NCBI GenBank assembly: GCA_964017155.1
Contig: OZ024858.1
Location: 25,852,687 to 25,916,686, forward strand
DNA from: Oasisia sp. SBJ-2009
Taxonomy: Eukaryota > Annelida > Polychaeta > Sabellida > Siboglinidae
Length of the DNA stretch: 64,000 nt
Direction of reading: 5' to 3'
Of this stretch, positions 1,712-43,570 are shown one piece after another. The notes beneath the pieces are model-generated. The model saw only the letters and a list, made by a program, of their open reading frames with translations. It was not told the DNA's origin and ran no database searches. Position 1 is the first letter of the stretch. Each line of letters opens with the position of its first letter. The translations under genes and the position numbers were made by a program.

Positions 1712-1837
1712 TCAGTTGCCTTCATAGAACTTTGAGAGAAAGTCAGCCGGCTTGGGATTCCATGTGTCTTTGAACCACGTCATGATGTGGTTCTTCTGTT
1801 TCCAGATGTTCACTGTCTCCACTAGTTCCATCTGGCC
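1712..1837 (-). CDS. NDUFA6: NDUFA6 exon 3 (terminal)
   Basis: The GTGCAG acceptor lies at 1838-1843. The exon encodes [30 protein letters not shown] and [11 protein letters not shown] followed by TGA at 1714-1712. Its first 29 or so bases are repeated about 13 more times upstream in the intron as part of an 80-bp tandem array. Confidence 0.95.
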   Translation of the reverse strand, partial: GQMELVETVNIWKQKNHIMTWFKDTWNPKPADFLSKFYEGN

Positions 1838-4800
1838 CTGCACAAACAGTCTTATTAAACATCACTGCATTTTATGTTCACTTTTATGTTCACAGTCTCC
1901 ACTAGTTCCATCTGGCCCTGCACAAACAGTCATATTACACAACACTGCTTTCTATGTTCACTTTTATGTCCACTGTCTCCACTAGTTCCATCTGGCCCTG
2001 CACAAACAGTCTTATTAAACATCACTGCATTTTATGTTCACTTTTATGTCCACTGTCTCCACTAGTTCCATCTGGCCCTGCACAAACAGTCTTATTAAAC
2101 ATCACTGCATTTTATGTTCACTTTTATGTTCACAGTCTCCACTAGTTCCATCTGGCCCTGCACAAACAGTCATATTACACAACACTGCTTTCTATGTTCA
2201 CTTTTATGTCCACTGTCTCCACTAGTTCCATCTGGCCCTGCACAAACAGTCTTATTAAACATCACTGCATTTTATGTTCACTTTTATGTCCACTGTCTCC
2301 ACTAGTTCCATCTGGCCCTGCACAAACAGTCTTATTAAACATCACTGCATTTTATGTTCACTTTTATGTTCACAGTCTCCACTAGTTCCATCTGGCCCTG
2401 CACAAACAGTCATATTACACAACACTGCTTTCTATGTTCACTTTTATGTCCACTGTCTCCACTAGTTCCATCTGGCCCTGCACAAACAGTCTTATTAAAC
2501 ATCACTGCATTTTATGTTCACTTTTATGTTCACAGTCTCCACTAGTTCCATCTGGCCCTGCACAAACAGTCATATTACACAACACTGCATTCTATGTTCA
2601 CTTTTATGCCCACTGTCTCCACTAGTTCCATCTGGCCCTGCACAAACAGTCTTATTAAACATCACTGCATTCTATGTTCACTTTTATGTTCACTGTCTCC
2701 ATTAGTTCCATCTGGCCCTGCACAAACAGTCATATTACACAACACTGCATTCTATGTTCACTTTTATGTCCACTGTCTCCACTAGTTCCATCTGGCCCTG
2801 CACAAACAGTCTTATTAAACATCACTGCATTCTATGTTCACTTTTATGTTCACTGTCTCCATTAGTTCCATCTGGCCCTGCACAAACAGTCTTATTAAAC
2901 ATCACTGCATTGTATGTTCACTGTACCTACTAAATTGAATTGAAGTTCTATACGTGCATGCAGTCGTAGTTCAACAATCACTGCATTCTGTGTTGACTGT
3001 CTCCATCGGGTAAAATATGGCCGTGCAGTCTTAATTAAACATCACTGCATAATAAAGTCTGCATTCTGTATTCTATCTGGTTCTGCAAAGTCTTAATTTA
3101 GATATCACTTCATTTTGTGTTCACTGTCTCCATTACTACTATCTGGCCTTGCACAATTTTAATTTCACGAAAATCCAGGAGTCCTGGAAAATCTGGGTAA
3201 AGTCATTAAGTGTTCTATGACCACTGATACATTGTCAGTTCACCAGAAAGCAGGAAAACCACCAACGATAATGTTGAAACTTGCAGAACAAAGTCTAATG
3301 GCAGCACTCACCCTGATCACTAAGAAGTCAATTGCCCGCAAGTCGGTGACATGTTTATTTTTCATAAACATCTCCCTCAGTTTGGCACGGCCATCCTTGA
3401 CAGTGACGCCAGGAATCTCATAGTTCAGCACTGCAGGGAAACAATAGTAAAATGTCTTAACATTTAAACCAGATGTCCTAGGTGAAATAGTATTTTTTTA
3501 TGAACAGTAAGAAGGAAGATGTCATTATATTAGCTACAACAATTACATATATCATACATGTCTTTTATTCATGGATTAAGCATGTTGATATGAAGTAATC
3601 ATATCCAGTTCATAGTTTTATGCAGAGACCCGTCCACCCGTCATTTGGACGGGTAAAACAGTTATGTACGGGTAGAAATATGGGTGGACAGGTTAAAAAA
3701 AGTGTTCCAATATTGTTGAGCTTGGTCGGTTGCAAGTAGTGGTGTTGTGCAGATGTGTGGGGGATAATGACAACATGTAATTATATATATATACATACCT
3801 ATATATATTTCAAGTGCAATTTATGCTTTATGTATCGTTTAATAACTAGTGGTATAATGTAACTCATATGTTAGTATATAGCAACATAAAGAATAAGGTG
3901 CATTTATGAGCGACGGAATGAAGGCTATAGTACGGGGGGGGGGGGGGTATGTTCATTGTGAACGGCCATAACAAAGCTGCCAACTTCGTGTCATTGTGTG
4001 GCAATGACTTTACAGTGCTCATACCTCCCCGTTCCGGCATTCACAATTACAGAACCCCCTTTTCAGTTGTTGGTCTTGGACTTGGTTTGTGATTGTCTGA
4101 CTGTGTAGCTCATTGTAAAAAAGGATTAATCATATTAATGTAACACTAATGTACTGTAGTAAGACATTAAACGATGTCGTAGGATAAACTGTAGGCACTT
4201 ATGTACAAGTCGGACCCACCTCAATTTTGCCATTATAACTGTATTTTTGCCAACATGTGATATTTTATTTTGTTAACTCAATCAATTATAATCATCTTGC
4301 GCATATCTATGTTTTATAAACAGCGCGTCTTGGCATACTTTTGAGGTCGAAAAGACAGCGCGATTTGTGCCAGTCGCAAGCGCAGCAGTGCATGTGTTAC
4401 TGCGCTGTGCACATGGAATGAGCGATAAACAGTTTGTTTATGCCGACCGCGCTGTCTTTTCGACCTCAAAAGTCTGCTAAGACGCGCTGTTTATAAAACA
4501 TAAATATGTGCAAGATAATTATAATTGATTGAATTAACAAAATCAAGTATCAAATGTTGGCAAAAATACAGTTATAATGGCAAAATTGAGGTGGGTCCGA
4601 CTTGTACATAAGTGCCAAACTGTATAACACATAGTTCGCGCGTGAAATATACTACACAAATGTTCACTACAGAAACATAATAAAATGACTGAGTGGACTG
4701 AATGACAGCGAGTTCGTTTCATCCGAGTAAAAAACCGACGATCGACCCAACCAATGCCAATGTCTTCGTGACAACAAGCATTACATGCTCATCTGCTTAT

Positions 4801-6538: not shown

Positions 6539-6541
6539 ATG
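6539..6541 (+). CDS. XPO6: XPO6 exon 1 coding part (ATG only)
   Basis: The start codon is immediately followed by a strong GTAAGT donor at 6542. Exon 2 continues in phase 0 with ASDAESLAALEALMTEFF, which matches the exportin-6 N terminus right after its Met. The 5' UTR precedes it in the CpG-rich stretch; the transcription start is not visible. No other in-phase ATG next to a donor was found, so the assignment is likely but inferred. Confidence 0.75.
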
Positions 6542-9500: not shown

Positions 9501-12500
9501 TACGTAATTTACATCATTAGATAACATAGGAGTTGATCGAATAGGTACAAACAAAATGGTATGTTTCTGGTAACATACTAAAAAAACATGGGCCGGAGGA
9601 ACTGACCCTAATAATTTTGCCTGGTAATTCACCATGGATAAAACATGAACAGGTAAAATAATATTTATAAGCATAGCTTTATGTAGAGATTTGTCCACCT
9701 GTCATTTGGATGGGTAAAACTCATTTTGGACAGGTAGACAATTTGTTGGACAGGCAGAGGAAGTGTAAACAATTAAGGAGCAAAATATGTCTTCGGAAAT
9801 CATAAATTGTCAATAATATGTTTGAAAATGGATGTCTTGTTTATTTCAATACATAGCAATTTGACATGCTTGTATATGTGTGCATTAACATGCATTTGTT
9901 GACCACAAAATGTTTGAACTGGCAAAAGTCTAATCCTGAATGAAGGCCTGTCTGTAGTACTCTCTACAGTAAAGCCAATGTTTGCGATGCCATTATGGTT
10001 ATCCATGGGCAGTTCCATGTAATTTCTATAGAAATAAATAAGGTGCGAGTCCATTTATGCTCAGCTCTATCTTATTATTCAAGAAAATGCTCAGTAATCC
10101 AGCACAAAATGATGCACACAATTGCCCAATGCCCACGTATACCCAAGCAGTGCATTTCTGTGGCTGAAATAATGAATGTTATTGTACTTATTAGTGTTAC
10201 TTCACTTTCAGGCGTCAGACGCAGAATCTCTGGCGGCTTTAGAGGCATTGATGACTGAGTTCTTTGATGGCGGAACCAACAACCAAAGGAAAAGGGCAAT
10301 TGGTTAGTGTCTTTATTATTGACCTTCAGTCGTTCTATCCCTAGCACTGACTGTGTTGTTAGTGTCTCAAACTTGTAATTGTTATTGACAGTGTCTGGAA
10401 GATGACTCAACATATGCTGCTCTAACTGTAGTTAACTTCATCTGTCTGTAAGTTGCATGTTTCACATGCAGCTCTGGGACGCTTGCATCACTATGTACAG
10501 TGTCTTGGTGCAACTTATGTTGAGGGGCCAGCAAATAGCTTTGTGGCATTGCATATCTAATTGAAAGTAAAATTTTCAACAGTAATAGTGGTGTTCTTAT
10601 TAAGTAACTAGCCTAAGTCTAGTTATCTGGAATAACAAGAGGGAGAAGTCATGTAGAAATCTTTCTGAATAATGCTGCGGCTGTTACTATGGCTGAGGAC
10701 ATTCAGAAATGAAATCTTCTAGACTAGTCCAGGTATCGAGTAGACTTGCATTTGACCCACCAACTGTTCATATTAATTGCAGGAACCAATTGTAGTCTGT
10801 AAACAAATTGTTGGTATCCTTCATTTCTGAGCACTGAAAATGTAACCGCCAGCACAATCCCAACACTACAGTGTGGAAAACACAACATCTGTTGCACTTT
10901 GCTGTGTCGTGTTTCAGAGGAGCTGCTGACAAACTTCAGCCAGCAGAAGGACGCGTGGAAACATTGTCTGTTCTTCATCACCACCACTCACAACGAGTAT
11001 GTCATCATGTTCTGCTGTACGGTGCTCGAGGTAGGAAGATTGGTTACAGAAAAGTTGAGTTAATCAACCGGATGATAGCTAGAATATTTTTCAAAAGACT
11101 TGCATCAGTGTTGTTGAAATGGGCCATTGCATAGTTATCTTTCAGGAGTTTGTTGTTGTGGAATTTTTTTCCTGCAACATGATTGTTACACCAATAATTT
11201 TGTTAAAGGCCACATTTATCCAAATCTGATACCACCATGGTGACAAAATCAACAGTTTCAATCAACAGGGTTGTGGGATATTGTCACTAAATTTTATTAT
11301 TCTTTTAATCTAGTCATGCCACTTTGTGATGTTAATGGAGACATTCCACAAGACACAGTTCTATGAATGTTTGAAGACAATTATGTAGCTTGGAACAATA
11401 ATTGAAACATGCACAATATTGCAAACAGATGGTTAAGCACAGTACACCACTGATGCCATTTCTATTTATGCCTAATGCAAAAACCTTTCCAGACAGCAAT
11501 TGTAAACTGCTCTAATATACAACTACATGTATAACTACATATCTACAAATGTATCTCTTCAGCTTGACTTGGTGCTGTGTATAGATGTTTCTAGTGTTAC
11601 AAATCTGAATCTTAACAAATTAGCAAATGATTGTTTACTGGGAATAGGAGAAAAATAACATATGTGCTTTGAAGTGAGGACAGTGTTCTTGATATTCTGA
11701 CAAAACTTTGAAGTGAGGACAGTGTTCTTGATGCTCTGACAGAACTTTGAAGTGAGGACAGTGTTCTTGATGCTCTGACAAAACTTTGAAGTGAGGACAG
11801 TGTTCTTGATGCTCCGACAGAACTTTGAAGTGAGGACAGTGTTCTTGATGCTCCGACAGAACTTTGAAGTGAGGACAGTGTTCTTGATGCTCCGACAGAA
11901 CTTTGAATTGAGGACAGTGTTCTTGATGCTCCGACAGAACTTTGAAGTGAGGACAGTGTTCTTGATGCTCCGACAGAACTTTGAAGTGAGGACAGTGTTC
12001 TTGATGCTCTGACAGAACTTTGAATTGAGGACAGTGTTCTTGATGCTCCGACAGAACTTTGAATTGAGGACAGTGTTCTTGATATTCTGACAAAACTTTG
12101 AAGTGAGGACAGTGTTCTGGATGCTCTGACAAAACTTTGAAGTGAGGACAGTGTTCTTGATATTCTGACAAAACTTTGAAGTGAGGACAGTGTTCTCGAT
12201 GCTCTGACAAAACTTTGAAGTGAGGACAGTGTTCTTGATATTCTGACAAAACTTTGAAGTGAGGACAGTGTTCTTGATATTCTGACAAAACTTTGAAGTG
12301 AGGACAGTGTTCTCGATGCTCTGACAAAACTTTGAAGTGAGGACAGTGTTCTTGATATTCTGACAAAACTTTGAAGTGAGGACAGTGTTCTCGATATTCT
12401 GACAAAACTTTGAAGTGAGGATAGTGTTCTTGATATTCTGACAAAACTTTGAAGTGAGGACAGTGTTCTCGATGCTCTGACAAAACTTTGAAGTGAGGAC

Positions 12501-15500
12501 AGTGTTCTCGATGCTCTGACAAAACTTTGAAGTGAGGACAGTGTTCTCGATATTCTGACAAAACTTTGAAGTGAGGACAGTGTTCTTGATGCTCTGACAA
12601 CACTTTGAGTTGAGGACATTGTTCTTGATGCTCTGACAGAACCTCATCAACCGGCAGTGGGTGGGCTTCCTGGGCAGTGACAAGAACGAGGTTCGCTCCG
12701 TGCTCAGCCAGCTGTTGCTGTCCAATCACCAACAGATGCCAGCCTTCATCCGCAACAAACTCGTCAAACTCATCGTCGACATTGGTCGACATGACTGGCC
12801 GCACTTCTACCCAGACTTCTTTGTCAACATCCTCCAGGTGTGTGACACAAGCTGACACAGGCACTGCAGGTGTCACTGTGTATGTTGAGAATGTACAGCC
12901 ATTTTCATTGGCTAACACAGAGACCTGAACTGTTGCGTAATGAAACGGGGGAGCTATTGTTTAATGGAATGCCTCAACACTGTTAACTTAACGATTACAA
13001 ATTATTTTGATTTAATGGTATCATATTTGATTTTGCTAGTACCTCTGTTGGTGTAGTGTAGTTGCTGTTAGAAACTGGATGGAGTGGATTTTAAACAATC
13101 CAAAAACATCAGACAGTCTCTGTGTGTATGTTACAGCGGGTTCAACAGCCTCAGACTGTCAATCTAATTGTATGTTACAGCTGGTTCAACAGCCTCGGAC
13201 TGTCAATCTTTGTGTATGTTACAGCTGGTTCAACAGCCTCAGACTGTCAATCTAATTGTATGTTACAGCTGGTTCAACAGCCTCAGACTGTCAATCTTTG
13301 TGTATGTTACAACTGGTTCAACAGCCTCAGACTGTCAATCTTTGTGTATGTTACAGCTGGTTCAACAGCCTCAGACTGTCAATCTTTGTGTATGTTACAG
13401 CTGTTTCAACAGCCTCAGACTGTCAATCTATGTGTATGTTACAGCTGGTTCAACAGCCTCAGACTGTCAATCTTTGTGTATGTTACAGCTGGTTCAACAG
13501 CCTCAGACTGTCAATCTTTGTGTATGTTACAGCTGGTTCAACAGCCTCAGACTGTCATTCTGGGCCTCATACTGCTGCAGACGACGTCTGAGGAGCTGGC
13601 GTGTCCTCGCGAGGACCTCAGTGTGGCCCGGAAACAGGAGCTGCACCGACTGCTCCTGGCCCAAGTTCCCACGACACTCCACATGCTCAATGGTGAGTGG
13701 CTGCCTGCTGACCCAGTCACGGGTACAGTGAGAGGGGGCCGTGGATGTCACAAGGGGAGGGTGACGTTTCTGTCAAGAAATACCTCTATGGAAGCAGAAT
13801 CAGGCATCAGTTTTGTGGGAAATTGGTGGGAGTTGACCGGATTACAACTCTGCTTATATTTAGGAGTAAGGGAGGCAGAAAATGTGTAAGTCCGCACATT
13901 TTTACACAAATCAAATAATAACTTAAACAATTAAGTCTGGTTAGTAGTTTATTTGTGTACTGCATATTTATCATTATAGCCGTATTTAATCACGAGTCGC
14001 GTTCATCTGCATTATAGTACATATGGCACTCCAATCTACAATTGTTTACCATTCATAATTGAAATGTAGCCAATAACCCATGGTGGGGTCTCCCATCGAA
14101 ATGTGCACTGTGGCTTCAAGTATTTTCAAAGTAACACATGCAAATTGCAAGTATGATCCATTATTACAAACAGAAAATGATACAAGATGTAAATATCATG
14201 CACATAGAATGTCATGAACAGCCACTTTAATCACTTGATCTGTCTTTTAAAAGTATGGAGTCATGCGAACTTCTTCCTTCCAAGGGACAAATATGGAGTC
14301 CAGAGATGAAACACAGAGTGTCCGACTAACTAGTGGAGTTGTAAGGTTACTGAGTTGTGTGCACCAGGTGTAGTGCAGTTGGAAGATTACAGAATTGTCT
14401 GCGCCAGGTATATTGGAGTTGTAAGGCGACTGAATTGTCTGCGCCAGGTGTAGTGTGGAGTAGTCAGGTGACTGAGTTGTGTGTGCCAGGTATAGTGAAG
14501 TTGTAAGGTGCATGAGTTGTATACACCAGGCATAATGGAGTTATAAGGTGACTGAGTTGTGTGTGCCAGGCATAGTTCAGTTGTACAATGACTGAATTGT
14601 ATGTGCCAGATATAGTGCAGTTGTAAGGTGACTGAGTTGTGTGGGCCAGGTATAGTGCAGTTGCAAGGTGACTTGAATTGTGTCCACCAGATATAGTTGA
14701 GTTTTAAGTTGACTGAGTTGTTTGCACAAGGTATAATGGAATAGTAAGGTAACTTAGTTGTATGTACCGGGCATAATGCAGTTGTAAGGTGACTGAGTTG
14801 TGTACACCAGGTATACTGCAGTTGAAAGGTGACTGAATTGTGTGCACCAGGTATACTGCAGTTGTAAGGTGACTGAATTGTGTGCACCAGGTATACTGCA
14901 GTTGAAAGGTGACTGAATTGTGTGCACCAGGTATACTGCAGTTGTAAGGTGACTGAGTTGTGTACACCAGGAATACTGGAGTTGTAAGGTGACTGAGTTG
15001 TGTGCACCAGGTATACTGGAGTCGATCCTGGAGAAACATCGATCGATGGTGACAGCGACGCCGCCGCCGTCACCGACACACGGCCAGACAGCCAGTGATG
15101 GCCACGTCACCGCGTCAGTGTCTGTCATCAGCTCATCCCCCATTCCACCTGGTGAGTGAAAGAAACATTCACAACATATAACATTACGTGCAGCTGAAAT
15201 CAGATGAGATAGTGGTGAACTACTGCAAATAAGAGGATAAAGCCGACAGTCACATCCGATTATTTGAGCTACTCTGACAGCTGTCAGGTGATTACATGTA
15301 AACCAAAGGTCGTCGAGTTTACATTTAGTGTTTATTTCATATATTTGTGCCCTATTCGTCTATGTTGCTGCATTTAGTTGTGAATCAGTTTTAAACATCT
15401 GAGATGTTTGCATGTTATTGTGGTAACTTGTTAAAACATAACATGCTTTGTAAACTCGATTGTGAAAAATCTGTCATCGAATCTGCAAAAGGAAAAATAC

Positions 15501-27045: not shown

Positions 27046-27131
<86 letters not shown>

Positions 27132-28376
27132 CATCAATCATACAACATTATAATATACATGTATATATATATATACATATATACATATGTATATTATAAT
27201 GTTGTATGATTTATGTAAATGATGCATAGATATAGATAATGTGGCCATCAGAAATGGTGTAAACTTAGCAAGTTACCATGAGAAAATTTAATTATCAGTC
27301 ATTATCACTCAAACAACCACCTCTTTGATTTTTTTTAACAGTAAAATATATTAAATTAGTCTTGCAAATAAGGCCACCTTTATATTCAGGTCACTTACCC
27401 TGACCTGGGGCTTACCTTAATGGTGAGGTTCCACTGAATTATATTTTAATATGCTTGATCTCTTTGGTATTGTGATAATGTCAGTGCTTTGAAAACCAAA
27501 AATTATGTTACTAAAACACCCTGCCATATATACCTTCTTTATTGATGTAAGTCTTTATTGATGTAAGTCTTTATTGATGTAAGTCTTTATTGATGTAAGT
27601 CTTTATTGATGTAAGTCTTTATTGATGTAAGTCTTTATTGATGTAAGTCTTTGTTGTGGAAGTTTTTGTTGTGGAAGTTTTTGACGTAGTACGTTTGAAA
27701 GTAGGAAGTAACAATGTTTTCAACAACACATCATGTTGGCAGAGTTGAGTGGGGTGGGTGCCGGGGGGGTGAGTTCTGACGCTGTGTTTGTTTACTTGTC
27801 ACAGATGTGACGGACGAGATCCTGGGCTTCTTCATGGCCACCTTCCAGTGTCTGCGGGTGCAGATGGGAGTCTCCTTCACAGAGCAGATCATCCGCACCT
27901 TCATGACTCTCTTCACAAAGTCTGACCCTTTCAGTTCCTCTCATATACGCACACACATGCATGCACACATGTCGCAAACACACATACCACATGTACGCAC
28001 GCACGCATGCACACACACCACATACACACACGCCTCATACACATACATGCACGCACGCACGCACGCATGCACGCATGCACGCATGCACGCATGCACGCAT
28101 GCACGCATGCACACATGTCACAAACACGCTACACACACACACACACACACACATGCCACATACACATGCATGCATGCATGCACGCATGCATGCACACATG
28201 TCACAAACAGCCCCCCCCCCACACACACACATGCACACACAAACACACACACACGCATGCACACACACACCACACGTATGCATGCACACATTTCACAAAC
28301 ATACGCCACACACACACCACATACACATGCATGCAGGTACGCACACCCACACCCACACACACACACGCCACACACG

Positions 28377-28410
<34 letters not shown>

Positions 28411-28526
28411 CACACACGCACTCCACCTGCCACCTCCACATAACAACCATATAACACATCTGCATCCCTCATTAACAACGCACTCCACACACGTACACAC
28501 TCCACACACGTACACACGTACACACA

Positions 28527-28584
<58 letters not shown>

Positions 28585-28650
28585 ACACACACACACACAC
28601 ACACGCCACACACGCCACACACGCCACACACGCCACACACACCACACACG

Positions 28651-28706
<56 letters not shown>

Positions 28707-37700: not shown

Positions 37701-40700
37701 TCAAGGATTCGGTCCTTACCGTGCTGAAGGGGGCACAGAATGACGAGAACGTGGAGAACCAGCAGCAGTTCATTGATATCATGCAGGTCTCTCGTGCTTC
37801 TGTTCTCATTCTACTCACCAGGTGGTGTGGCAGTGTCATCTCAACATTCACTTTTTATACAAATGTACAAAGTTAGATGACCTGAGAACTAAATATATAT
37901 CTTCATGTATTAGGATGAGTGCAAATGTATACAATTTTACTTGTATGCTACAGAACAGTGAACCAGACAAAATTAATAATCTGGCAAAATTCATCATGTG
38001 TGGTTTAAAACTGGATGGTCAATGACCCGACACCTAGTGTGTGATTCATGAACTTGTATAAATGTAATTTTACGTGGATAGTAGTATAACTGTAATTATT
38101 ATCCAGTTGTAATTATTGATATGTAGTGTTATGCATGTTCTATATATGTGTTTGTAAAACTGTGATCCTTTATGTACCATGATATATGGTTAGAGTGAAT
38201 AAAATTTTATTCAATTGTCCTTTTGTTGTTGTTATACAATCAACTAAACTAAACAATACAGTGTAAATGATGATATTGAGTGCGACACTCAGACCACCTA
38301 AATATATGATAATGAAACAGAAACGACTTCTAAATTCAACAAATTAATGTTTAATCAACTCTCCTAGTACCAAGCTTGGATATTTACATGGCACACTGAC
38401 TTACAAATGGTCAGCTTCCGCTTGGAACATTTTCAGATCAACAATAAAACTATCCACATTTTGCCACTTGCAGTCAGTGTGTCACAATGGATACAGTTCA
38501 TACATAAAGATAAACAACGAATGGAGCACTTCCCTTTGATCTGTGATGCCAATAATGCACAGGTGTATTAACGTGTTTGAACATGGTTGCAGGCGTTTGG
38601 CCAGTCGTTTCTCCAGCCGGACATTGCAATATTCAAACAGACACTCCAGACACTACAAGACCTGAACTCTAAGTGGAAACTCTACCACAAAGTAAGTCTA
38701 ACTGGCAGCATTCATTTGCAATATGTAGAACCAAGTTACATATACCACGAATACATGAACACAAGTTGGCAACATGTCAGGTTTACAGCAATGCCATTCT
38801 TGTAAGTCAAATATATGCAAAGTTATGAATGGATAAAGTAACTCTATTCCACGAGACAGTGCTCTATAGTTCCTCACAGTGCTCTTTCTATGTTTACAGG
38901 GCATCTTCCACGAGACAGTGCTCTATAGTTCCTCACAGTGCTCTTTCTATGTTTACAGGGCATCTTCCACGAGACAGTGCTCTATAGTTCCTCACAGTGC
39001 TCTTTCTATGTTTACAGGGCATCTTCCACGAGACAGTGCTCGATAGTTCCTCACAGTGCCCTTTCTATGTTTACAGGGCATCTTCCACGAGACAGTGCTC
39101 TATAGTTCCTCACAGTGCCCTTTCTATGTTTACAGGGCATCTATAGTTCCTCACAGTGCCCTTTCTATGTTTACAGGGCATCTTCCACGAGACAGTGCTC
39201 TATAGTTCCTCACAGTGCTCTTTCTATGTTTACAGGGCATCTTCCACGAGACAGTGCTCTATAGTTCCTCACAGTGCCCTTTCTATGTTTACAGGGCATC
39301 TTCCACGAGACAGTGCTCTATAGTTCCTCACAGTGCTCTTTCTATGTTTACAGGGCATCTTCCACGAGACAGTGCTCTATAGTTCCTCACAGTGCCCTTT
39401 CTATGTTTACAGGGCATCTTCCACGAGACAGTGCTCTATAGTTCCTCACAGTGCCCTTTCTATGTTTACAGGGCATCTTCCACGAGACAGTGCTCTATAG
39501 TTCCTCACAGTGCTCTTTCTATGTTTACAGGGCATCTTCCACGAGACAGTGCTCTATAGTTCCTCACAGTGCTCTTTCTATGTTTACAGGGCATCTTCCA
39601 CGAGACAGTGCTCTATAGTTCCTCACAGTGCTCTTTCTATGTTTACAGGGCATTTTCCGGGAGACAGTGCTCTATAGTTCCTAACAGTGCTTTTTCTATG
39701 TTTACAGGGCATCTTCCGCGAGACAGTGCTCTATAGTTCCTCACAGTGCTCTTTCTATGTTTACAGGGCATCTTCCACGAGACAGTGCTCTATAGTTCCT
39801 AACAGTGCTTTTTCTATGTTTACAGGGCATCTTCCGCGAGACAGTGCTCTATAGTTCCTCACAGTGCTCTTTCTATGTTTACAGGGCATTTTTCATGAGA
39901 CAGTGCTCTATAGTTCCTCACAGTGCTCTTTCTATGTTTACAGGGCATCTTCCACGAGACAGTGCTCTATAGTTCCTCACAGTGCTCTTTCTATGTTTAC
40001 AGGGCATTTTTCATGAGACAGTGCTCTATAGTTCCTCACAGTGCTCTTTCTATGTTTACAGGGCATCTTCCACGAGACAGTGCTCTATAGTTCCTCACAG
40101 TGCTCTTTCTATGTTTACAGGGCATCTTCCACGAGACAGTGCTCTATAGTTCCTCACAGTGCTCTTTCTATGTTTACAGGGCATCTTCCACGAGACAGTG
40201 CTCTATAGTTCCTCACAGTGCTCTTTCTATGTTTACAGGGCATTTTCCGGGAGACAGTGCTCTATAGTTCCTAACAGTGCTTTTTCTATGTTTACAGGGC
40301 ATCTTCCGCGAGACAGTGCTCTATAGTTCCTCACAGTGCTCTTTCTATGTTTACAGGGCATCTTCCACGAGACAGTGCTCTATAGTTCCTAACAGTGCTT
40401 TTTCTATGTTTACAGGGCATCTTCCGCGAGACAGTGCTCTATAGTTCCTCACAGTGCTCTTTCTATGTTTACAGGGCATTTTTCATGAGACAGTGCTCTA
40501 TAGTTCCTCACAGTGCTCTTTCTATGTTTACAGGGCATCTTCCACGAGACAGTGCTCTATAGTTCCTCACAGTGCTCTTTCTATGTTTACAGGGCATTTT
40601 TCATGAGACAGTGCTCTATAGTTCCTCACAGTGCTCTTTCTATGTTTACAGGGCATCTTCCACGAGACAGTGCTCTATAGTTCCTCACAGTGCTCTTTCT

Positions 40701-42304
40701 ATGTTTACAGGGCATCTTCCCTGAGAATGCTCTATAGTTCCTCACAGTGTTCTTTCTATGTTTACAGGGCATCTTCCGCGAGACGATGCTGTACCAGTTC
40801 CTCACAGTGCTCCTGCAGGTGCTCGTGTGTAGGTCACATGACCTACTGCAGGAGGAGATCGCTGTCACTGTCTACAATATGGCATCTGTGGACTTTGACA
40901 CGTTCTACGCGTGCTTCCTGCCTACCTTCCTGGCTGGCTGCGAAGGCATTGACGCGAGTCAGAAGGCTGTACTGGCACAGAACTTCAAGATGGACTGTGT
41001 GAGTGACAGCCAGGGCTTTATGCAGGATCAAATTATTGCCAGTCACACGTTTTGGTGGACACGTGGATGTTAACTGTTAAGCTAGTTAACAAACTTTCAA
41101 ATTGTGCCTGATGACCTGAAATGGCCTACAAACACACATTTGACACCATTTACGATGACACTCACTTTCAAGGCTTAACTAACAATATCTATGGTTTTGG
41201 AAGACCTTCATTTTTTTTACCCGTCCACAACCTGTCCTCCGTATTTCTGCCCGCCCATATTCGTTTTTACCCGTCCAAATGACGGGTGGACGGGTCTCTA
41301 GATAAAGCTATGGTGGCAGCGTAGATAGGTTGTTAAAGGCATACTTCAGTCGGTGAGAGGTTCACAGTATTAATGCACATATGCATAATATATTGGTTGT
41401 GCATAGTGTTTGTGCACAGATATCGTTAATAAATTAATCACAGTATAATTGCACCAAAAAACTTGCGTTCTTGGATTCAGGGTGCTGCTATCTTGGTGCA
41501 CAAAACCAGTGACGTAAACCAAATCGCTTACATCACAGCTTGGCGGAAGCTTCTTATATAATTATGATTTAAGCAAACCGTGACGTATTGGATACATCAA
41601 ATAGCATACCCTTGGACAGAAGTAGGATGTTTGAACATGCATGCGCTAGTGATTTAAGCGGTTTACATCACTGGTTCTGTGCGTCAAGATGGCAGCACCC
41701 TGAATCCAAAATAGCATGTTTTTTGGTACAATTATTGTTTATTAATTATCTTTGTGCACAATTACTATGCACAATCAATATATTATACATATTTATGTAA
41801 ATACTGTGAACTTCTCACTTACTGGAATGTCCCTTTAACTGTTTGTACTAGAATTATTGGAAACAATTTGCAGTATAGCAGAACAAAACATTTCTTAGCT
41901 AGTATGGCTTTGCTTAACCATCGTATTCTTAATACATTAAAAAGTTAACACCTTCTGATCTTTATATAATAATCATGCATATTCTGCAGTGTGCTTTTAT
42001 CGTGAGTCAGGTTTTATGGTTGTGCTTAACATTATATCACCTTGGCACAACAATTGTTCTACAGTTACTAGGCTAATTTGTATTGTGAAGTACTTTTTTT
42101 GAAAAAACAGTATATTTGTCTAAATTGCATTTACATCATACATTGTTTTGTTCTTATGTCTGAAGATAGTTTATTAAAGTTTGTGATATTGTGTTTTTAC
42201 AGGATCTGCCGTCATTTAGCAACAGTCTACAGAGGTTTGTGAGTGACCTGCGATACTACCGCCTGTGCAACAGCAGCCTGCCTGCCGGCTCTGTCCACTT
42301 CTAG
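6539..42304 (+). CDS. XPO6: Exportin-6, complete gene, 23 coding exons
   Basis: Exportin-6 is a karyopherin-beta that, with RanGTP, carries actin-profilin complexes out of the nucleus. Exons: 6539-6541, 10212-10302, 10918-11030, 12640-12837, 13533-13692, 15011-15151, 15820-16273, 17309-17545, 18359-18467, 19927-20019, 21437-21681, 22260-22352, 23525-23675, 24011-24160, 25597-25786, 26785-26943, 27805-27919, 29020-29079, 36418-36529, 37625-37786, 38593-38691, 40768-40998, 42203-42304. Joined, they give 3468 bases, 1155 aa plus stop, with every phase consistent and no internal stop; vertebrate exportin-6 is about 1125 aa. Family-diagnostic blocks include TTSEELACPREDLSVARK, FRYNQSHLDELDDE, LQVLVCRSHDLLQEE and DLRYYRLCNSSLP at the C terminus. 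Introns hold a broken LINE, several MITEs and many exon-edge minisatellites. Confidence 0.96.
6826..9172. mobile_element. Inverted-repeat-bounded segment in XPO6 intron 1
   Basis: The 69-base arm at 6826-6894 (GTTACGTAGGCGAGCATCGG ...) reappears as its reverse complement at 9104-9172 with several substitutions. A further diverged partial copy of the motif lies at about 9024-9090. The 2.2 kb between is very AT-rich (7280-8880) with no coding frame. It could be a non-autonomous DNA transposon or two copies of a short repeat in opposite orientation; no target duplication was identified. Confidence 0.45.
9672..9768 (+). mobile_element. hAT-like MITE fragment
   Basis: CATAGCTTTATGTAGAGA followed by a diverged version of the GTCCACC/GGACGGG inverted motifs. 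It is similar to the left end of the copy at 50919, with the right half missing. Confidence 0.55.
10212..10302 (+). CDS. XPO6: XPO6 exon 2
   Basis: Acceptor TTTCAG at 10206-10211, donor GTTAGT at 10303. Encodes ASDAESLAALEALMTEFF and DGGTNNQRKRAI, phase 0 to 1. This is the start of the importin-beta N-terminal (Ran-binding) region. Confidence 0.95.
10918..11030 (+). CDS. XPO6: XPO6 exon 3
   Basis: Encodes EELLTNFSQQKDAWKHCLFF and ITTTHNEYVIMFCCTVLE. Acceptor TTTCAG, donor GTAGGA, phase 1 to 0. Part of the first HEAT-like helices. Confidence 0.95.
11031..11660. other. XPO6 intron 3, unique part
   Basis: AT-rich intronic sequence before the exon 4 minisatellite. No exon, RNA gene or transposon end was recognised. 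Confidence 0.5.
11668..12639 (+). repeat. 39-bp minisatellite seeded on the XPO6 exon 4 acceptor
   Basis: About 25 units of 39 bases. Each holds TTGATGCTCTGACAGAAC or a close variant (GATATTCTGACAAAAC, GATGCTCCGACAGAAC). The last occurrence is the true acceptor, CTGACAG followed by AACCTC of exon 4. Because the period is a multiple of three and lacks stops, all three minus-strand frames stay open, which makes spurious 335-427 aa frames. Confidence 0.95.
12640..12837 (+). CDS. XPO6: XPO6 exon 4
   Basis: Encodes NLINRQWVGFLGSDKNEV, then MPAFIRNKLVKLIVDIGRHD and WPHFYPDFFVNILQ, the conserved end of the importin-beta N-terminal/Xpo1-like region. Phase 0 to 0; donor GTGTGT. Confidence 0.96.
13117..13532 (+). 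repeat. 44-bp minisatellite seeded on the XPO6 exon 5 acceptor
   Basis: About 10 units of 44 bases. Each has TATGTTACAG followed by CTGGTTCAACAGCCTCAGAC, the true start of exon 5. About 26 exon bases are repeated per unit; the array stops exactly where the real exon continues with a unique sequence. Confidence 0.95.
13533..13692 (+). CDS. XPO6: XPO6 exon 5
   Basis: Encodes LVQQPQTVILGLILLQ, then TTSEELACPREDLSVARKQE, one of the most invariant exportin-6 blocks, and LHRLLLAQVPTTLHMLN. Phase 0 to 1; donor GTGAGT. Confidence 0.97.
14316..15010 (+). repeat. 40-bp minisatellite seeded on the XPO6 exon 6 acceptor
   Basis: About 17 units with a 40-base period near the exon (for example 14841 and 14881), more diverged toward 14320. 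Each carries TGTGCACCAG followed by GTATACTGCAGTTGTAAGG; the real exon 6 starts GTATACTGGAGTCGATC after the last CACCAG. Confidence 0.93.
15011..15151 (+). CDS. XPO6: XPO6 exon 6
   Basis: Encodes ILESILEKHRSMVTATPPPS followed by a Ser/Thr-rich linker ending SSSPIPP. Vertebrate exportin-6 has a similar Pro-rich stretch here. Phase 1 in, phase 1 out; donor GTGAGT. Confidence 0.93.
15152..15819. other. XPO6 intron 6
   Basis: 668 bases of intron with no repeat array or recognised element. The open frame at 15462-15680 is not protein-like. Confidence 0.5.
15820..16273 (+). CDS. XPO6: XPO6 exon 7 (largest exon)
   Basis: Encodes SILSNMFKSPQRHVETEQLP, LGCLSHLFSWIPLSRTITTP, LLSTIFHFAAFGCEVSP, a low-complexity Ser/Ala insert, and CINELLAKNCVPEEFEDYLL QMFQQCFYLL. 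Acceptor TCCTCCAG, donor GTCAGT, phase 1 to 2. Confidence 0.97.
16309..16554 (+). repeat. Ectopic copy of the exon 6 array with an exon 6 fragment
   Basis: About five units of the 40-bp family from intron 5 recur here in intron 7. They end with a CACCAG acceptor and a damaged copy of the first ~45 bases of exon 6 (GTATACTGGGGTCGATC, then AGAAACATCGATCGATGG). A 4-base loss puts the fragment out of register with exon 6. Confidence 0.9.
16555..17308. other. XPO6 intron 7, unique part
   Basis: AT-rich, no further element recognised. Confidence 0.5.
17309..17545 (+). CDS. XPO6: XPO6 exon 8
   Basis: Encodes YVDKFTEFLQLFVSIHLRRF, then LLALLFKYTFKQPTNEGFFS and CLEIWATFIDYLNTKL. Phase 2 to 2; the donor is GCCAG followed by GTGAGT, which is the seed of the array that follows. 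Confidence 0.97.
17546..18090 (+). repeat. Minisatellite seeded on the XPO6 exon 8 donor
   Basis: About 16 units of roughly 30-38 bases; length varies with a CAGA tract. Each contains CAGTGCTGGCCAG followed by GTGAGT, the last 13 exon bases plus the donor. The array begins at the true donor and runs into the intron, so every unit presents an equally good decoy 5' splice site. Confidence 0.95.
18359..18467 (+). CDS. XPO6: XPO6 exon 9
   Basis: Encodes YQEVLLSLARQILQNLQ, FRYNQSHLDELDDEVLDDD. Acceptor TTGCCAG, donor GTGAGT, phase 2 to 0. Confidence 0.97.
18567..19599. mobile_element. TTAA-flanked piggyBac-like non-autonomous element
   Basis: TTAA (18563-18566) followed by CCCATTAGACCCCA at the left end, and TGGGGTCTAATGGG followed by TTAA (19600-19603) at the right. 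A perfect 14-base terminal inverted repeat with TTAA duplication is typical of piggyBac-type elements. There are about 1.03 kb of AT-rich interior; no transposase frame was recognised. Confidence 0.85.
19927..20019 (+). CDS. XPO6: XPO6 exon 10
   Basis: Encodes SETEWQHFLRQYLETVAKVA and DLFPEETFRLV. Acceptor TTTCTAG, donor GTAAGT, phase 0 to 0. Confidence 0.95.
20355..21436 (+). repeat. About 25-28-bp minisatellite seeded on the XPO6 exon 11 acceptor
   Basis: Nearly 40 units, most reading TGTGTATTGTAGGGGGAACC plus ATTGGTC or ACTGGTA. The real acceptor is TTTTCTAG followed by GGGGAACCATTCCAG, the first bases of exon 11. The far end of the array (about 20360-20387, CATTCCAGTAGAACATAG...) is itself a decayed copy of exon 11 bases further inside, so the founding duplication included about 35 exon bases. 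Units near the exon are about 25-27 bases and those further away about 27-28. Confidence 0.93.
21437..21681 (+). CDS. XPO6: XPO6 exon 11
   Basis: Encodes GEPFQENVDIYLGLERHVVT, a short insert, then LAVTAENECRRLHCSLRDLS and SLLQMLGRLSHHFIGEHF. Starting at GGGGAA makes the join to exon 10 collinear with the family without a gap. Phase 0 to 2; donor GTAGAG. Confidence 0.93.
21696..21778 (+). repeat. 10-bp tandem repeat (TGTCATTTTG) next to the exon 11 donor
   Basis: Eight to nine perfect copies beginning 14 bases into intron 11. No exon or donor bases are included, so it is not of the exon-edge class. Confidence 0.95.
22260..22352 (+). CDS. XPO6: XPO6 exon 12
   Basis: Encodes LIETVSYGSRVKLYEVKTSV and DGVLQSDFIEV. 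Acceptor GATCAG, donor GTAAGT, phase 2 to 2. Confidence 0.95.
22353..23110 (+). repeat. 29-bp minisatellite seeded on the XPO6 exon 12 donor
   Basis: About 26 units of 29 bases. Each contains GACTTCATCGAAGT, the last 14 bases of exon 12, followed by GTAAGTAC, the true donor. Two unit types alternate (GTAAGTACATGTATT and GAAAGTAGGTGTGTT); the second has lost the GT. The array decays toward 23100. Confidence 0.95.
23525..23675 (+). CDS. XPO6: XPO6 exon 13
   Basis: Encodes HAQAFAAVKAYSAWLAQFYV and EMINTVVDTVLPMFTKE. Acceptor TTTGCAG, donor GTCAGT, phase 2 to 0. Confidence 0.95.
23790..24010 (+). repeat. 78-bp repeat seeded on the XPO6 exon 14 acceptor
   Basis: TTGTTGGGCCAG occurs at 23843, 23921 and 23999, an exact 78-base period, with a fourth decayed unit upstream. 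Each unit repeats about 50 bases of the exon start (CCTGTGGCCGAGCGAGTGG...). The third is the functional one and runs into unique exon sequence. Confidence 0.92.
24011..24160 (+). CDS. XPO6: XPO6 exon 14
   Basis: Encodes PVAERVAQSAAHLLLSVFTT, VKPPFLLHLPQVQTFYNAV and SHGLLAQHSKE. Phase 0 to 0, donor GTGAGT. The exact 5' border is slightly uncertain because the same acceptor is repeated; this choice gives a two-residue longer join than vertebrate exportin-6. Confidence 0.9.
24224..24440. repeat. TTTTATTATA-rich low-complexity tract
   Basis: Over 200 bases of almost pure A/T, built from TTTTATTATAT-like words. Confidence 0.9.
24585..25596 (+). repeat. 56-bp minisatellite seeded on the XPO6 exon 15 acceptor
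   Basis: About 18 units of 56 bases. Each has TTACAG or TTCCAG followed by GTGCAACTGTTGCTGTACCG and CTCTCTCCAACTACCTGT, about 40 bases of exon 15. The last copy is the true exon. Open frames of up to 380 aa across the array are a by-product of stop-free repeats. Confidence 0.95.
25597..25786 (+). CDS. XPO6: XPO6 exon 15
   Basis: Encodes VQLLLYRSLSNYLLLGWLCC, EWSFRAASHQAFVKQLTLEL and a conserved-length linker ending SKPLQEE. Phase 0 to 1, donor GTGAGT. Confidence 0.95.
25790..26400 (+). repeat. About 24-bp minisatellite directly after the exon 15 donor
   Basis: About 25 variable units of the form GTGACACGTCATGCATTAGT GCTA. The first begins four bases into the intron (GTGAGTGACATGTC), so it touches the donor but carries no exon bases. 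Units in 26180-26400 are more diverged. Confidence 0.85.
26785..26943 (+). CDS. XPO6: XPO6 exon 16
   Basis: Encodes KPCIKRVLHIVADLIESM, SRSKQICYQSVEEVIQTT and SFLFPIYIRQP. Acceptor GGCAG has a weak pyrimidine tract; phase 1 to 1, donor GTAAGT. Confidence 0.9.
27049..27131. repeat. (TA)n microsatellite
   Basis: About 40 TA dinucleotides, with imperfect TA-rich flanks to 27185. Confidence 0.97.
27537..27652 (+). repeat. 16-bp tandem repeat (TTGATGTAAGTCTTTA)
   Basis: Seven to eight near-perfect copies inside intron 16. Each contains a GTAAGT donor-like word but no exon bases of a neighbouring exon. Confidence 0.93.
27805..27919 (+). CDS. XPO6: XPO6 exon 17
   Basis: Encodes DVTDEILGFFMATFQCLRVQ and MGVSFTEQIIRTFMTLFT. 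Acceptor TCACAG, donor GTCTGA (weak), phase 1 to 2. Confidence 0.95.
27940..28735. repeat. (CA)n / CACGCATG-rich compound satellite
   Basis: Almost 800 bases of ACAC, ACGCATGC and ACGCCACAC runs starting about 20 bases after the exon 17 donor. It makes many spurious His/Thr-rich open frames. Confidence 0.95.
29020..29079 (+). CDS. XPO6: XPO6 exon 18
   Basis: A 60-base exon encoding EQLTEIIQNESEAGLKVID. Acceptor TGTTACAG, donor GTCAGT, phase 2 to 2. It joins to both neighbours exactly as the family predicts. Confidence 0.93.
29790..32652 (-). pseudogene. LINE ORF2: endonuclease-reverse transcriptase, inactivated
   Basis: An N-terminal exonuclease-endonuclease-phosphatase domain (CLNARSIVNKRNELN, IIGITESW, then GDFNH and GCSDHNQ) is followed by a reverse transcriptase (SPGVDGIPPKLL, HGFLKARSC, SGVPQGSVLGPILF, catalytic FADD near 30560). 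A TGA at 32203-32205 (in a CpG-type CGA context) and a TAG at 31093-31095 interrupt one otherwise continuous frame. Beyond 29923 the frame shifts and the C-terminal CR1-type tail (KKQCRLDIRKFSQRT) continues. Confidence 0.85.
32634..33778 (-). pseudogene. LINE ORF1 with zinc-finger and SGNH-esterase-like domain, frameshifted
   Basis: The N-terminal part (33778-33176, 200 aa) has Cys/His pairs, for example CDYCHSF and FQCTGC, that resemble a PHD/zinc-finger fold, then a basic low-complexity region. After a frameshift near 33180-33200 the frame continues (33179-32634) with GNSILRKTD, ILVHVGTNNADREG, ILSGILPVIGGRG and DGLHLSGKG. These are the GxS, GxN and DxxH-type blocks of an SGNH/GDSL hydrolase, as seen in the ORF1 of some CR1-clade elements. 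The presumed role is RNA/lipid binding during retrotransposition. Confidence 0.75.
34018..34440. repeat. About 219-bp tandem duplication upstream of the LINE ORFs
   Basis: Two diverged copies; AATCTTCACATAAGAATAAT occurs at about 34199 and 34418, and ACCCTATTATCACCCAC at about 34125 and 34316. They lie just 5' of ORF1 and may be promoter monomers of the LINE. Confidence 0.7.
34441..36417. other. XPO6 intron 18, right part
   Basis: Non-coding. No exon, LINE or MITE ends recognised in 34.5-36.4 kb; CpG-containing stretch around 34860-35170. Confidence 0.4.
36418..36529 (+). CDS. XPO6: XPO6 exon 19
   Basis: Encodes FLKILQLIVQEPGTAFKAFL and PNIISICMDHIYPIISQ. Acceptor ATTCTAG, donor GTAGGG, phase 2 to 0. 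Confidence 0.96.
36639..36969. mobile_element. Snapback MITE in XPO6 intron 19
   Basis: The left arm TATTGTAGTATAATTTAAC... and the right arm are reverse complements for about 115 bases, with a loop around 36780-36830. Non-coding; the apparent frame at 36675-36884 is a shadow. Confidence 0.8.
36970..37624. other. XPO6 intron 19, right part
   Basis: Unique AT-rich intron. The 109-aa open frame at 37086-37415 has no family resemblance. Confidence 0.5.
37625..37786 (+). CDS. XPO6: XPO6 exon 20
   Basis: Encodes KPTVDIKPALYELLHELLQN, NWRYFFKDSVLTVLKGAQ and ENVENQQQFIDIMQ. Acceptor TAACAG, donor GTCTCT (weak), phase 0 to 0. Confidence 0.96.
37787..38592. other. XPO6 intron 20
   Basis: No array or recognised element. 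An AATAAAATTTTATT word near 38199 could act as a premature poly(A) signal but nothing else supports that. Confidence 0.45.
38593..38691 (+). CDS. XPO6: XPO6 exon 21
   Basis: Encodes AFGQSFLQPDIAIFKQTL and QTLQDLNSKWKLYHK. Acceptor TTGCAG, donor GTAAGT, phase 0 to 0. Confidence 0.96.
38845..40767 (+). repeat. 59-bp minisatellite seeded on the XPO6 exon 22 acceptor
   Basis: About 32 units of 59 bases over 1.9 kb. Each contains TTTCTATGTTTACAG plus GGCATCTTCCACGAGACAGT and GTTCCTCACAGTGCTC: 15 intron bases and about 44 exon bases. The real exon differs at a few places (CGCGAGACGATGCTGTACCA). A 10-unit block starting at about 39649 with a variant CATTTTCCGGGAGAC recurs at 40239, 590 bases on, showing a higher-order duplication. 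Confidence 0.97.
40768..40998 (+). CDS. XPO6: XPO6 exon 22
   Basis: Encodes GIFRETMLYQFLTVLLQVLV, CRSHDLLQEEIAVTVYNMAS, VDFDTFYACFLPTFLAGCEG and KAVLAQNFKMDC. Phase 0 to 0; donor GTGAGT. Confidence 0.97.
41011..41312 (-). mobile_element. hAT-like MITE, complete, 12 bases after the exon 22 donor
   Basis: The ends are CAGGGCTTTATG and CTAGATAAAGCTATG, inverted relative to the copy at 50919. The flanking 8-mers GTGACAGC and GTGGCAGC match at 7 of 8 positions and look like an aged target duplication. It lies in intron 22, leaving GTGAGTGACAGC intact. Confidence 0.85.
41333..41838. mobile_element. TTAA-flanked snapback MITE
   Basis: Long inverted arms: left TTAAAGGCATACTTCAGT..., right ...ACTGGAATGTCCCTTTAA, with matching internal blocks such as GATTGTGCATAGT and TGGATTCAGGGTGCTGC. 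TTAA flanks suggest a piggyBac- or Kolobok-type transposase. No coding frame. Confidence 0.8.
42203..42304 (+). CDS. XPO6: XPO6 exon 23 (terminal)
   Basis: Encodes DLPSFSNSLQRFVSDLRYYR and LCNSSLPAGSVHF, then TAG at 42302-42304. Acceptor TTTTTACAG, phase 0. The C terminus matches the family, which ends at about the same residue. Confidence 0.97.
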   Translation, partial: DLPSFSNSLQRFVSDLRYYRLCNSSLPAGSVHF

Positions 42305-43570
42305 TATCGTCTATAGATACTACTGTCTGTGTAACAGCAGTCTGTCTGTTGGTTCTGTCCACTTCTAATATCGTCTATAGATACTACTGTCTGTACAACA
42401 CCAGTCTGTCTGCTGGCTCTGTCCACTTCTAATATCGTCTGTAGATACTATCGTCTGTGCAACAGCCGGCTGGCTCTGTCCACTTCTAACACTCTATAGA
42501 TACTACCGTCTGTGCAACAGCAGTCTGTCTGTTGGTTCTGTCCACTTCTAATAGGGCGTGCAAGTCTCGCGCGCGAAAACGAGCCGGGGGCAGGAAGTCC
42601 ATATTCTCCATGTTAACGTATAGGACTTTGTTTTGTTTTTTGTTGTAATAATCGAACTGTTCCAGTCTAACTATTTCAGTTATACTATCCGAAGGATTAT
42701 TACAAGCAGAAGCAGTGGAACCCTTTACCGGTGACAATGCTCACGGAAATCATGAATTTTAATCGATTATTATGGTGGTTGCCATGGCAACACCGGCTTG
42801 TACTTGTGTTTGGCGATCTTGACTAATAATGAAAAGCGCCATTTTTCGTGCAGTACAACCTGTTTGGGGCAAACGTATACATGTGTTATGATTATGTGCA
42901 TTTAGACAACTTGTCAGATATAAGTGCTTATCGAAACCACAACGTACAGCTACGTAAAATGCAAATCCTGTAAAAGACACATACGACCTAAAATTGTGGG
43001 GAGTGTATTATCTGCGCTACGTAAATCGCTATGTCTATGATTGTGCGGTAAACTCAATATTAAATCGGACATTTCAAATAAGAAAGGTATAACACAAACT
43101 ATTTATGTCCTTATTTTCCTAGTATTCATCAGGCGGAAGTTACAACTCATCCATCGAATATTATTCTTGTGACCAGTCCCCAAATCAGCTCCAGTCGCGC
43201 GGAGTCTCGCCATGTATCGTGACCCACTTGCACGCCCTATATCGTCTATAGATACTACCGTCTGTGTAGCAGCAGTCTGTCTGTTGGTTCTGTCCACTTC
43301 TAATATCGTCTATAGATACTACTGTCTATGTAATAGTAGTCTGTACACTTCAAAAACACTGTCTATAGATACTACAGTCTATGTAACAGCAGTCTGTCCA
43401 CTTCTAACACTGTCTATATATACTACTGTCTACGTAATAGCAGTCTGTACACTTCAAACACTGTCTATAGATACTACAGTCTATGTAACAGCACTCTGTC
43501 CACTTCTAACACTGTCTATAGATACTACCATCTGTATAACAGTAGTCTGTCCACTGGGTCTGTCCATGTC
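42305..43570 (+). repeat. Degenerate tandem array of the XPO6 terminal coding segment, split by a transposon
   Basis: About 10 diverged units of about 60-65 bases (TATAGATACTACTGTCTGTG... GTCCACTTCTAA) that copy the last ~60 coding bases (GATACTACCGCCTGTGCAAC... GTCCACTTCTAG) and the stop codon. They form the start of the 3' UTR. The element at 42553-43238 sits inside this array. Confidence 0.9.
42553..43238. mobile_element. Non-autonomous DNA transposon inside the XPO6 3' array
   Basis: Terminal inverted repeats AGGGCGTGCAAGT and ACTTGCACGCCCT bound 686 bases. The adjoining array units give the empty site (CTTCTAATATCGTC), showing a 2-base duplication (AT, or TA depending on where the ends are set). 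There is no convincing transposase; the small minus-strand frames are not recognised. Confidence 0.85.

Follow-up and report, generated by a model that had tools for sequence, protein, structure and literature searches.

Exon-edge minisatellites resembling amphioxus mirages in unlinked genes of an annelid genome

A stretch of 64,000 nucleotides (nt) of Oasisia sp. SBJ-2009 (GenBank assembly GCA_964017155.1, contig OZ024858.1, positions 25,852,687 to 25,916,686; hereafter the window, numbered from its first nucleotide) contains NDUFA6 (minus strand) and XPO6 (plus strand), and twelve minisatellites in it lie on exon edges of these two genes, eleven at splice junctions (8 acceptors and 3 donors) and one at a coding end. 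The unit of the spanning arrays consists of an intron end plus an exon start, or of an exon end plus an intron start. Together with a second set of genes, arrays were present in 9/10 genes examined, spread over seven chromosome-sized contigs, and the units of the edge arrays of these genes are about 24-80 nt long and occur in up to 58 copies. We propose, with a probability of about 0.7, that the arrays are the annelid counterpart of the exon-edge minisatellites known as mirages in amphioxus, recurring in genes that are not linked, and that they would result from tandem duplication of junctions, a filter for units with a complete splice site, expansion within the intron, and splicing at the copy contiguous with the exon.

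The gene models on which the edges rest are intact. The three exons of NDUFA6 give a full open frame, and its protein has a Complex1_LYR match in Pfam. XPO6 was mapped from exon 2 to exon 23, the start exon lying outside the mapped model; when these exons are joined via the exon-contiguous copy of every array, the model has 1155 codons, one terminal stop, and AG and GT at all internal edges. Residues 1-501 of XPO6 have Xpo1 and IBN_N matches in Pfam, a sequence search of the PDB matched distant exportins only, and a search of Rfam gave zero hits at gathering thresholds.

Tandem Repeats Finder (TRF) recovered every array named in the initial annotation, and together with the reconstruction of the frames it bore out all of the exon edges listed there and added an array that had been missed, at the donor of XPO6 exon 15. 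On the minus strand, an array of fourteen 80-nt copies (1806..2922) covers the acceptor of NDUFA6 exon 3 (exon start 1837), with a unit of about 48 nt of intron and 32 nt of exon and AG intact in 14/14 copies. The remaining arrays belong to the plus strand. Acceptor arrays of XPO6 were found at exon 4 (12640-12837; 39 nt x 25, 11667..12645, exon part about 3 nt, AA replacing AG in 16/25 copies), exon 5 (13533-13692; 44 nt x 10, 13119..13561, about 18 nt of intron and 26 nt of exon), exon 6 (15011-15151; 40 nt x 17, 14331..15022), exon 11 (21437-21681; 27 nt x 40, 20385..21452), exon 14 (24011-24160; 78 nt x 3, 23815..24062, exon part about 52 nt), exon 15 (25597-25786; 56 nt x 19, 24571..25640) and exon 22 (40768-40998; 59 nt x 33, 38847..40812, about 15 nt of intron and 44 nt of exon). 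Donor arrays were found at exon 8 (exon end 17545; 35 nt x 16, 17523..18103, GT in 14/16 copies), at exon 12 (exon end 22352; 29 nt with a 58-nt higher order, 22335..23108, GT in 19 and GA in 7 of 27 copies) and at exon 15, where a degenerate 24-nt array (25787..26390, GT in 4/25 copies) is reported by TRF from 25790 and at a stricter setting from 25833. The twelfth edge array, about 64 nt x 5 (42252..42553), lies over the coding end (the stop codon ends at 42304) and 3' untranslated region (UTR) of exon 23, and here, as had been claimed, the pattern occurs without a splice site. This terminal array is split by an insertion, recognised by reading (42554..43238, plus strand), whose ends are inverted (GGGCGTGCAAGT ... 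ACTTGCACGCCC); the second half of the array lies at 43240..43555 (TRF for 43289-43555, otherwise by reading). The claim that surplus copies sit on the intron or UTR side of the edge held for the window arrays. Window units measure 24-80 nt, and copies within an array are 74-98% alike according to TRF; higher-order repeats were detected by TRF in the arrays of XPO6 exons 12 and 22 and by reading in that of NDUFA6. By reading, the decoy copies of the exon 22 array have differences from the exon copy in common; these and the higher-order repeats might reflect concerted evolution of the inner copies to the exclusion of the boundary copy, a trait of amphioxus mirages.

For a count in the window, TRF arrays with a period of 20 or more and three or more copies were merged by hand, which left out arrays of period below 20 or with fewer than 3 copies as well as TA, TG and CA repeats, and gave 15 arrays. 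Twelve of the 15 partially overlap an exon edge, compared with a mean of 1.8 for shuffles within the window and of 3.0 for shuffles confined to the gene span; none of 20,000 shuffles reached 12. Under a looser criterion, by which an array may touch or cover an edge, the expectation rises to 4.6 (window, 0/20,000 shuffles) or 7.5 (gene span, P = 0.011). Three arrays lie off the edges: the displaced exon-6 copy, a stretch rich in AT, and the part of the terminal array beyond the inserted element. An automatic list (period at least 15, at least 2.5 copies, 30 nt of slack) places 11/17 window arrays at edges; it misses the exon-15 donor array because TRF starts that array 47 nt into the intron. 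Since long arrays inflate the introns in which they lie, each array was also collapsed to a single founder unit, and with this null model an edge is spanned by 10 of the 13 arrays that lie in introns of XPO6, compared with 1.7 expected (P = 2.5e-7; coding-end arrays left out). These figures agree with the earlier judgement that chance placement is implausible, and so does the second gene set; the window had been chosen for its odd look, and therefore its figures alone are insufficient.

The second set was drawn from a search of the genome with the Pfam family Cpn60_TCP1, which gave 49 matches, grouped into some nine gene-like clusters plus three long hits that stand alone. It covers eight clusters, namely seven CCT genes (67.6 kilobases, kb) and part of HSPD1/HSP60 (9 kb), and leaves out the ninth cluster, of about 32 kb on contig C8 near 45.4 megabases (Mb), together with the solitary hits. 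Clusters were chosen from the match list and not for their arrays, but long open frames had been noticed beforehand, so the order was not fully blind. With the Pfam matches alone taken as exons, 7/16 arrays in the chaperonin genes touch an edge, compared with 2.5 expected (P = 0.006). The CCT exons were then mapped automatically by approximate sequences of human proteins; this mapping, run after the flanks had been read, gave 64 exons in seven genes, and 10/17 arrays lie at their edges compared with 2.7 expected (P = 1e-4) or, for the same count under the founder-collapsed null, 3.2 expected (P = 2e-4). In HSPD1, 2/2 arrays lie at edges (P = 0.019), thus the eight chaperonin genes together have 12/19 arrays at protein-mapped edges. 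Reading of the flanks by eye gave 13/17 arrays for CCT and 2/2 for HSPD1 (15/19 together), and at least 3 of the 13 CCT edge arrays adjoin an acceptor without clearly containing its AG. No array was found in CCT4 at the thresholds used. In CCT8 (L032, 4315-5279) an exon of about 72 nt is flanked by a 49-nt x 13 acceptor array and a 75-nt x 3 donor array. In CCT3 (L031, reverse complement, 219-473) one 53-nt array takes up most of the intron that separates the first mapped exon from the second, and its unit resembles the acceptor edge of the second exon.

Outside chosen genes the picture is fainter. Twenty random 10-kb stretches hold 30 arrays, most of them not beside recognisable coding sequence. 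Exons in these regions were called by a codon model for which the genes examined served as the training set; it is a weak annotator that found 55/64 training exons together with 16 other segments. At the loosest coding threshold, 7 of the 25 arrays that the stretch ends do not cut lie at the edges of coding-like segments, compared with 2.3 expected (P = 0.004). Some of the matches presumably fall on genes, namely on SOS-like exons in one stretch (L009) and on an oxoglutarate-dehydrogenase-like exon in another (L013). A third stretch (L020) has seven minisatellites in 10 kb without clear coding sequence, and array-rich stretches thus exist off recognisable genes. The excess is clear in well-mapped genes and merely suggestive in random sequence, and arrays occur off exons too. 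By the criterion of the initial annotation, a genome-wide lack of excess at exon edges would refute its claim; this partial survey found an excess in the chaperonin genes and, depending on the threshold, in random regions, and did not refute the claim.

The distribution of the arrays between the two kinds of edge, and the composition of their units, bear on how they arise. When edges are assigned by reading, arrays of the window and of the CCT genes (HSPD1 excluded) occupy 20/83 acceptors and 4/82 donors (Fisher P = 6.5e-4, odds ratio 6), and this acceptor bias favours a mutational bias. Acceptor and donor arrays do not differ significantly in unit length (P = 0.26). In the 20 spanning arrays of the window and CCT genes, the exon part of the unit ranges from 2 to 57 nt and the intron part from 12 to 73 nt (some lengths by eye), and units with an intron part of less than 12 nt are absent (0/20, P = 0.003 under uniform breakpoints), which suggests that a selective filter acts too. 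Such a filter fits the geometry of the arrays: the exon-joined copy has exon sequence upstream of it, and therefore its own unit must supply the splice signal. AG or GT is kept in 164/228 copies of the 11 window splice-edge arrays, leaving about 153 decoys; decoy splice sites do exist, as the initial annotation stated, and at about 150 with an intact dinucleotide they fall short of the hundreds it announced. The splice dinucleotide columns of these 11 arrays are conserved no better than other adjacent columns, with a one-sided P of 0.02 for being worse, in a comparison in which the copies within an array are not independent. Periods are divisible by 3 in 9/24 arrays, where about one in three is expected without coding constraint, and in-frame translation of the decoys was set aside on this count.

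We therefore envisage a sequence of four steps. The founder would be a short tandem duplication across an exon-intron junction, putatively commoner at acceptors than at donors and commoner at junctions than in the intron interior. It would survive only when the unit contains a complete splice site, since the exon-joined copy must still splice, as the 0/20 count of short intron parts supports. The surplus copies would then expand and homogenise within the intron by unequal exchange or slippage, to which the divergence of units and the higher-order repeats point, and finally the exon-contiguous copy would be spliced and the remaining copies removed as intron. We infer the use of the exon-contiguous copy because that choice yields an intact conserved frame, and use of a decoy would shift the frame wherever the period is not a multiple of three. 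The decoy sites are without selective maintenance and may be slowly lost.

As to the host, the assembly comprises 764 Mb in 33 contigs, and contig 33 is a 15,483-base mitochondrial genome. Reading of 14,000 bases of it, with the nad5 stretch outside, gave genes that all share one strand; one series runs cox1-N-cox2-D-atp8-Y-G-cox3-Q-nad6-cob-W-atp6-R-(non-coding)-H, and another F-E-P-T-nad4L-nad4-C-M-rrnS-V-rrnL-L-A-S-L-nad1-I-K-nad3-S-nad2-cox1. Transfer RNAs were called by ARAGORN, and a few of its calls that overlapped or looked odd were disregarded; COX1 was found too, and Pfam confirmed 8/9 of the other frames tested. The genes which we take to be nad6, atp8, nad4L and the ribosomal RNAs were assigned in part by position. 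From this gene order we take the genome to be that of an annelid. The order from cox1 to trnE is identical, nad5 apart, to that of the leech Torix tukubana (PMC9957428), and the blocks common to Lumbricus and Urechis are present, most of which are not listed as shared by Branchiostoma (PMC521484). A cephalochordate (amphioxus) genome and a molluscan one were considered and rejected on the mitochondrial gene order.

Such arrays have been described in amphioxus. Its globin and Adh3 genes contain tandem duplications across exon-intron boundaries, minisatellite-like and of both edge kinds, that were termed mirages; reverse transcription polymerase chain reaction suggested regular splicing, and the loci showed length instability (PMC3087553). 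The loci reported are Adh3 and the globins BflGb6 and BflGb9 (PMC3087553), and PGBD5, with troponin C mentioned (PMC3902484). The annelid arrays have the same structure, with a unit that spans the exon-intron boundary, in 11 window arrays and more in the chaperonin genes; donor and acceptor edges are both affected in the two animals, and unit length varies between loci in both, the one unit shared between window sites being that of the displaced exon-6 copy. That copy, five units plus part of the exon 6 start, lies in intron 7 of XPO6 off any exon edge (16310..16560, plus strand; 16310-16514 by TRF, the exon-6-like stretch by reading), a junction array copied to a non-adjacent site. The amphioxus cases, as far as these sources describe them, are one-locus descriptions from a chordate, and their units measure 10-72, 60, 108 and 150-160 nt; in the annelid, by contrast, one gene can have many arrays, acceptors are favoured, and the excess at edges was tested statistically. 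Thus the arrays are not new in kind, being of the same structure as mirages; what is new is their occurrence in another phylum and in unlinked genes, the acceptor bias, the lack of any spanning unit with less than 12 nt of intron, and the unconserved decoys. Neither mirages outside amphioxus nor an annelid report of such arrays was found in the literature searched, most subscription papers being outside its reach.

Partial parallels come from other systems. The minisatellite of the human IFI6 (6-16) gene reportedly provides multiple splice donor sites, its tandem unit containing one, and several of them are used in the transcript; the unit with a donor site recalls the present arrays, but the case is said to concern one gene and donors only. 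Human genes in segmental duplications have variable internal tandem repeats at exon-intron boundaries (PMC2812944), likewise minisatellite expansions at boundaries, but these affect recent primate paralogues, lie in half of the cases within coding exons and are linked to new introns (PMC2812944). Intron gain by tandem genomic duplication is also reported (e.g. PMC4974935) and likewise involves a duplicate with splice signals; there the duplication is linked to a new intron, whereas the present arrays have many copies, border introns that already exist and show no gained intron. The earthworm metallothionein gene, another annelid case with intronic minisatellites, has them in intron 1 and has exon-4 duplications that are missing from the transcript (PMC12783039), and arrays spanning splice junctions are not described in the text covered of that paper. 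Nor are exon-edge arrays described in the text covered of an amphioxus huntingtin paper or a C. elegans minisatellite paper.

Several observations weigh against our proposal. In the random regions, two stricter coding thresholds give 3/25 each (P = 0.15 and 0.10), and two of the seven edge arrays found at the loosest threshold depend on a doubtful coding segment in L020. The acceptor bias is non-significant in the window alone (8/24 acceptors vs 3/23 donors, P = 0.17), and automatic assignment in the CCT genes gives 8 acceptor and 2 donor arrays, compared with 12 and 1 by reading; one of the two automatic donor calls is the intron-filling CCT3 array, the unit of which was read as the next acceptor. 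In the CCT genes 7/17 arrays lie off the mapped edges, and 4/17 off the edges by reading too, and the second gene set is a single protein family (CCT plus HSP60), albeit on seven chromosomes. The identity of the spliced copy is itself inferred from the sequence, and the coding-end array of exon 23, having no splice site, means that the link may be to coding edges and not to splicing.

The last point leads to the main rival, survivorship without a junction-linked cause. If duplications arise evenly or mostly in exons, and selection purges those that disrupt coding, arrays would remain at the edges with no process tied to splicing. The exon 23 array is what this would produce, the exon parts of 2 to 57 nt are as random breakpoints would yield, and the missing short intron parts suggest a filter in any case. 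On the other hand, arrays in the intron interior should be equally free under purging alone, yet they are a minority in these genes, and it is not obvious why selection alone should favour acceptors over donors by an odds ratio of 6; moreover, the explanation works only if exons are hot spots of duplication, a mutational bias in its own right. We consider survivorship alone improbable, at something like a third of the weight we give to our own proposal. The initial annotation had attributed the arrays to a process linked to exon ends or to selection; the non-chance excess stands, and either such a process or selection may produce it.

Selection might instead act positively, keeping extra splice-site copies since they help or regulate splicing. 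All 20 spanning units measured contain a full splice site, and the 164/228 copies retaining AG or GT might be read in the same way, but conservation of the dinucleotides does not exceed that of the remaining unit and tends to fall below it, with AG lost in 16/25 exon 4 copies and GT kept in only 4/25 copies at the exon-15 donor, thus we regard positive selection as very unlikely. Misassembly seems hardly credible as what made the arrays or set how many copies they have: one mirage locus was reported to be aberrant in the draft assembly of amphioxus (PMC3087553), but copies that are 74-98% alike with higher-order patterns are not invented by misassembly, the arrays recur in 9/10 genes on seven chromosome-sized contigs, and the window exons are intact and in frame. 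Chance in a minisatellite-rich genome, with a window picked for its oddness, is judged equally improbable: the 30 arrays in 200 kb of random sequence, most off recognisable coding sequence, speak for it, but the excess repeats in the second gene set, also with founder collapse. A single dispersed satellite or transposon family was ruled out, as units at different loci have different sequences and include coding sequence of their own locus, in keeping with the initial annotation, which had called the units unrelated; a genome search with the exon-5 array, by a method that skips very common words, found only itself.

Other features of the window were noted beside these arrays. Two short-unit arrays include no exon edge, one of 10 nt x 8 (21696-21778) that begins 15 nt past the end of XPO6 exon 11, and one of 16 nt x 9 (27536-27683) with GTAAG within its unit. 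Intron 18 of XPO6 contains the remains of a non-LTR (long terminal repeat) retrotransposon on the minus strand (29923-33808), with RVT_1 and Exo_endo_phos_2 matches in Pfam in two frames tested. A dispersed repeat around cgtccacccgtcatttggacgggtaaaa occurs in at least three copies, at about 3626, 9690 and 41270, the third inverted, and a long inverted repeat at about 4200-4615, with the motif gtacaagtcggacccacctc in both arms, is probably a foldback element.

Arrays of this kind are known so far, in the papers covered, as lancelet mirages in a handful of genes, and their occurrence in a second and distant phylum, with some two dozen examples among ten genes, opens their cause to testing. Since one genome holds arrays of different ages, founder breakpoints, acceptor bias and the decay of decoys become countable in it. 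The arrays are relevant to the origin of minisatellites, to the choice of the spliceosome among near-identical sites, and to the source of new introns and splice sites, and gene predictors can be misled by them. More tentatively, and at somewhat less than even odds, a standing germ-line process in annelids might amplify splice junctions, acceptors above all (about a quarter of the acceptor edges in the genes examined), either independently of the amphioxus mirages or as an old bilaterian process suppressed in most lineages, and might feed intron sliding, intron gain and new splice forms. Exon-edge arrays may in this way contribute to the evolution of introns and splicing.

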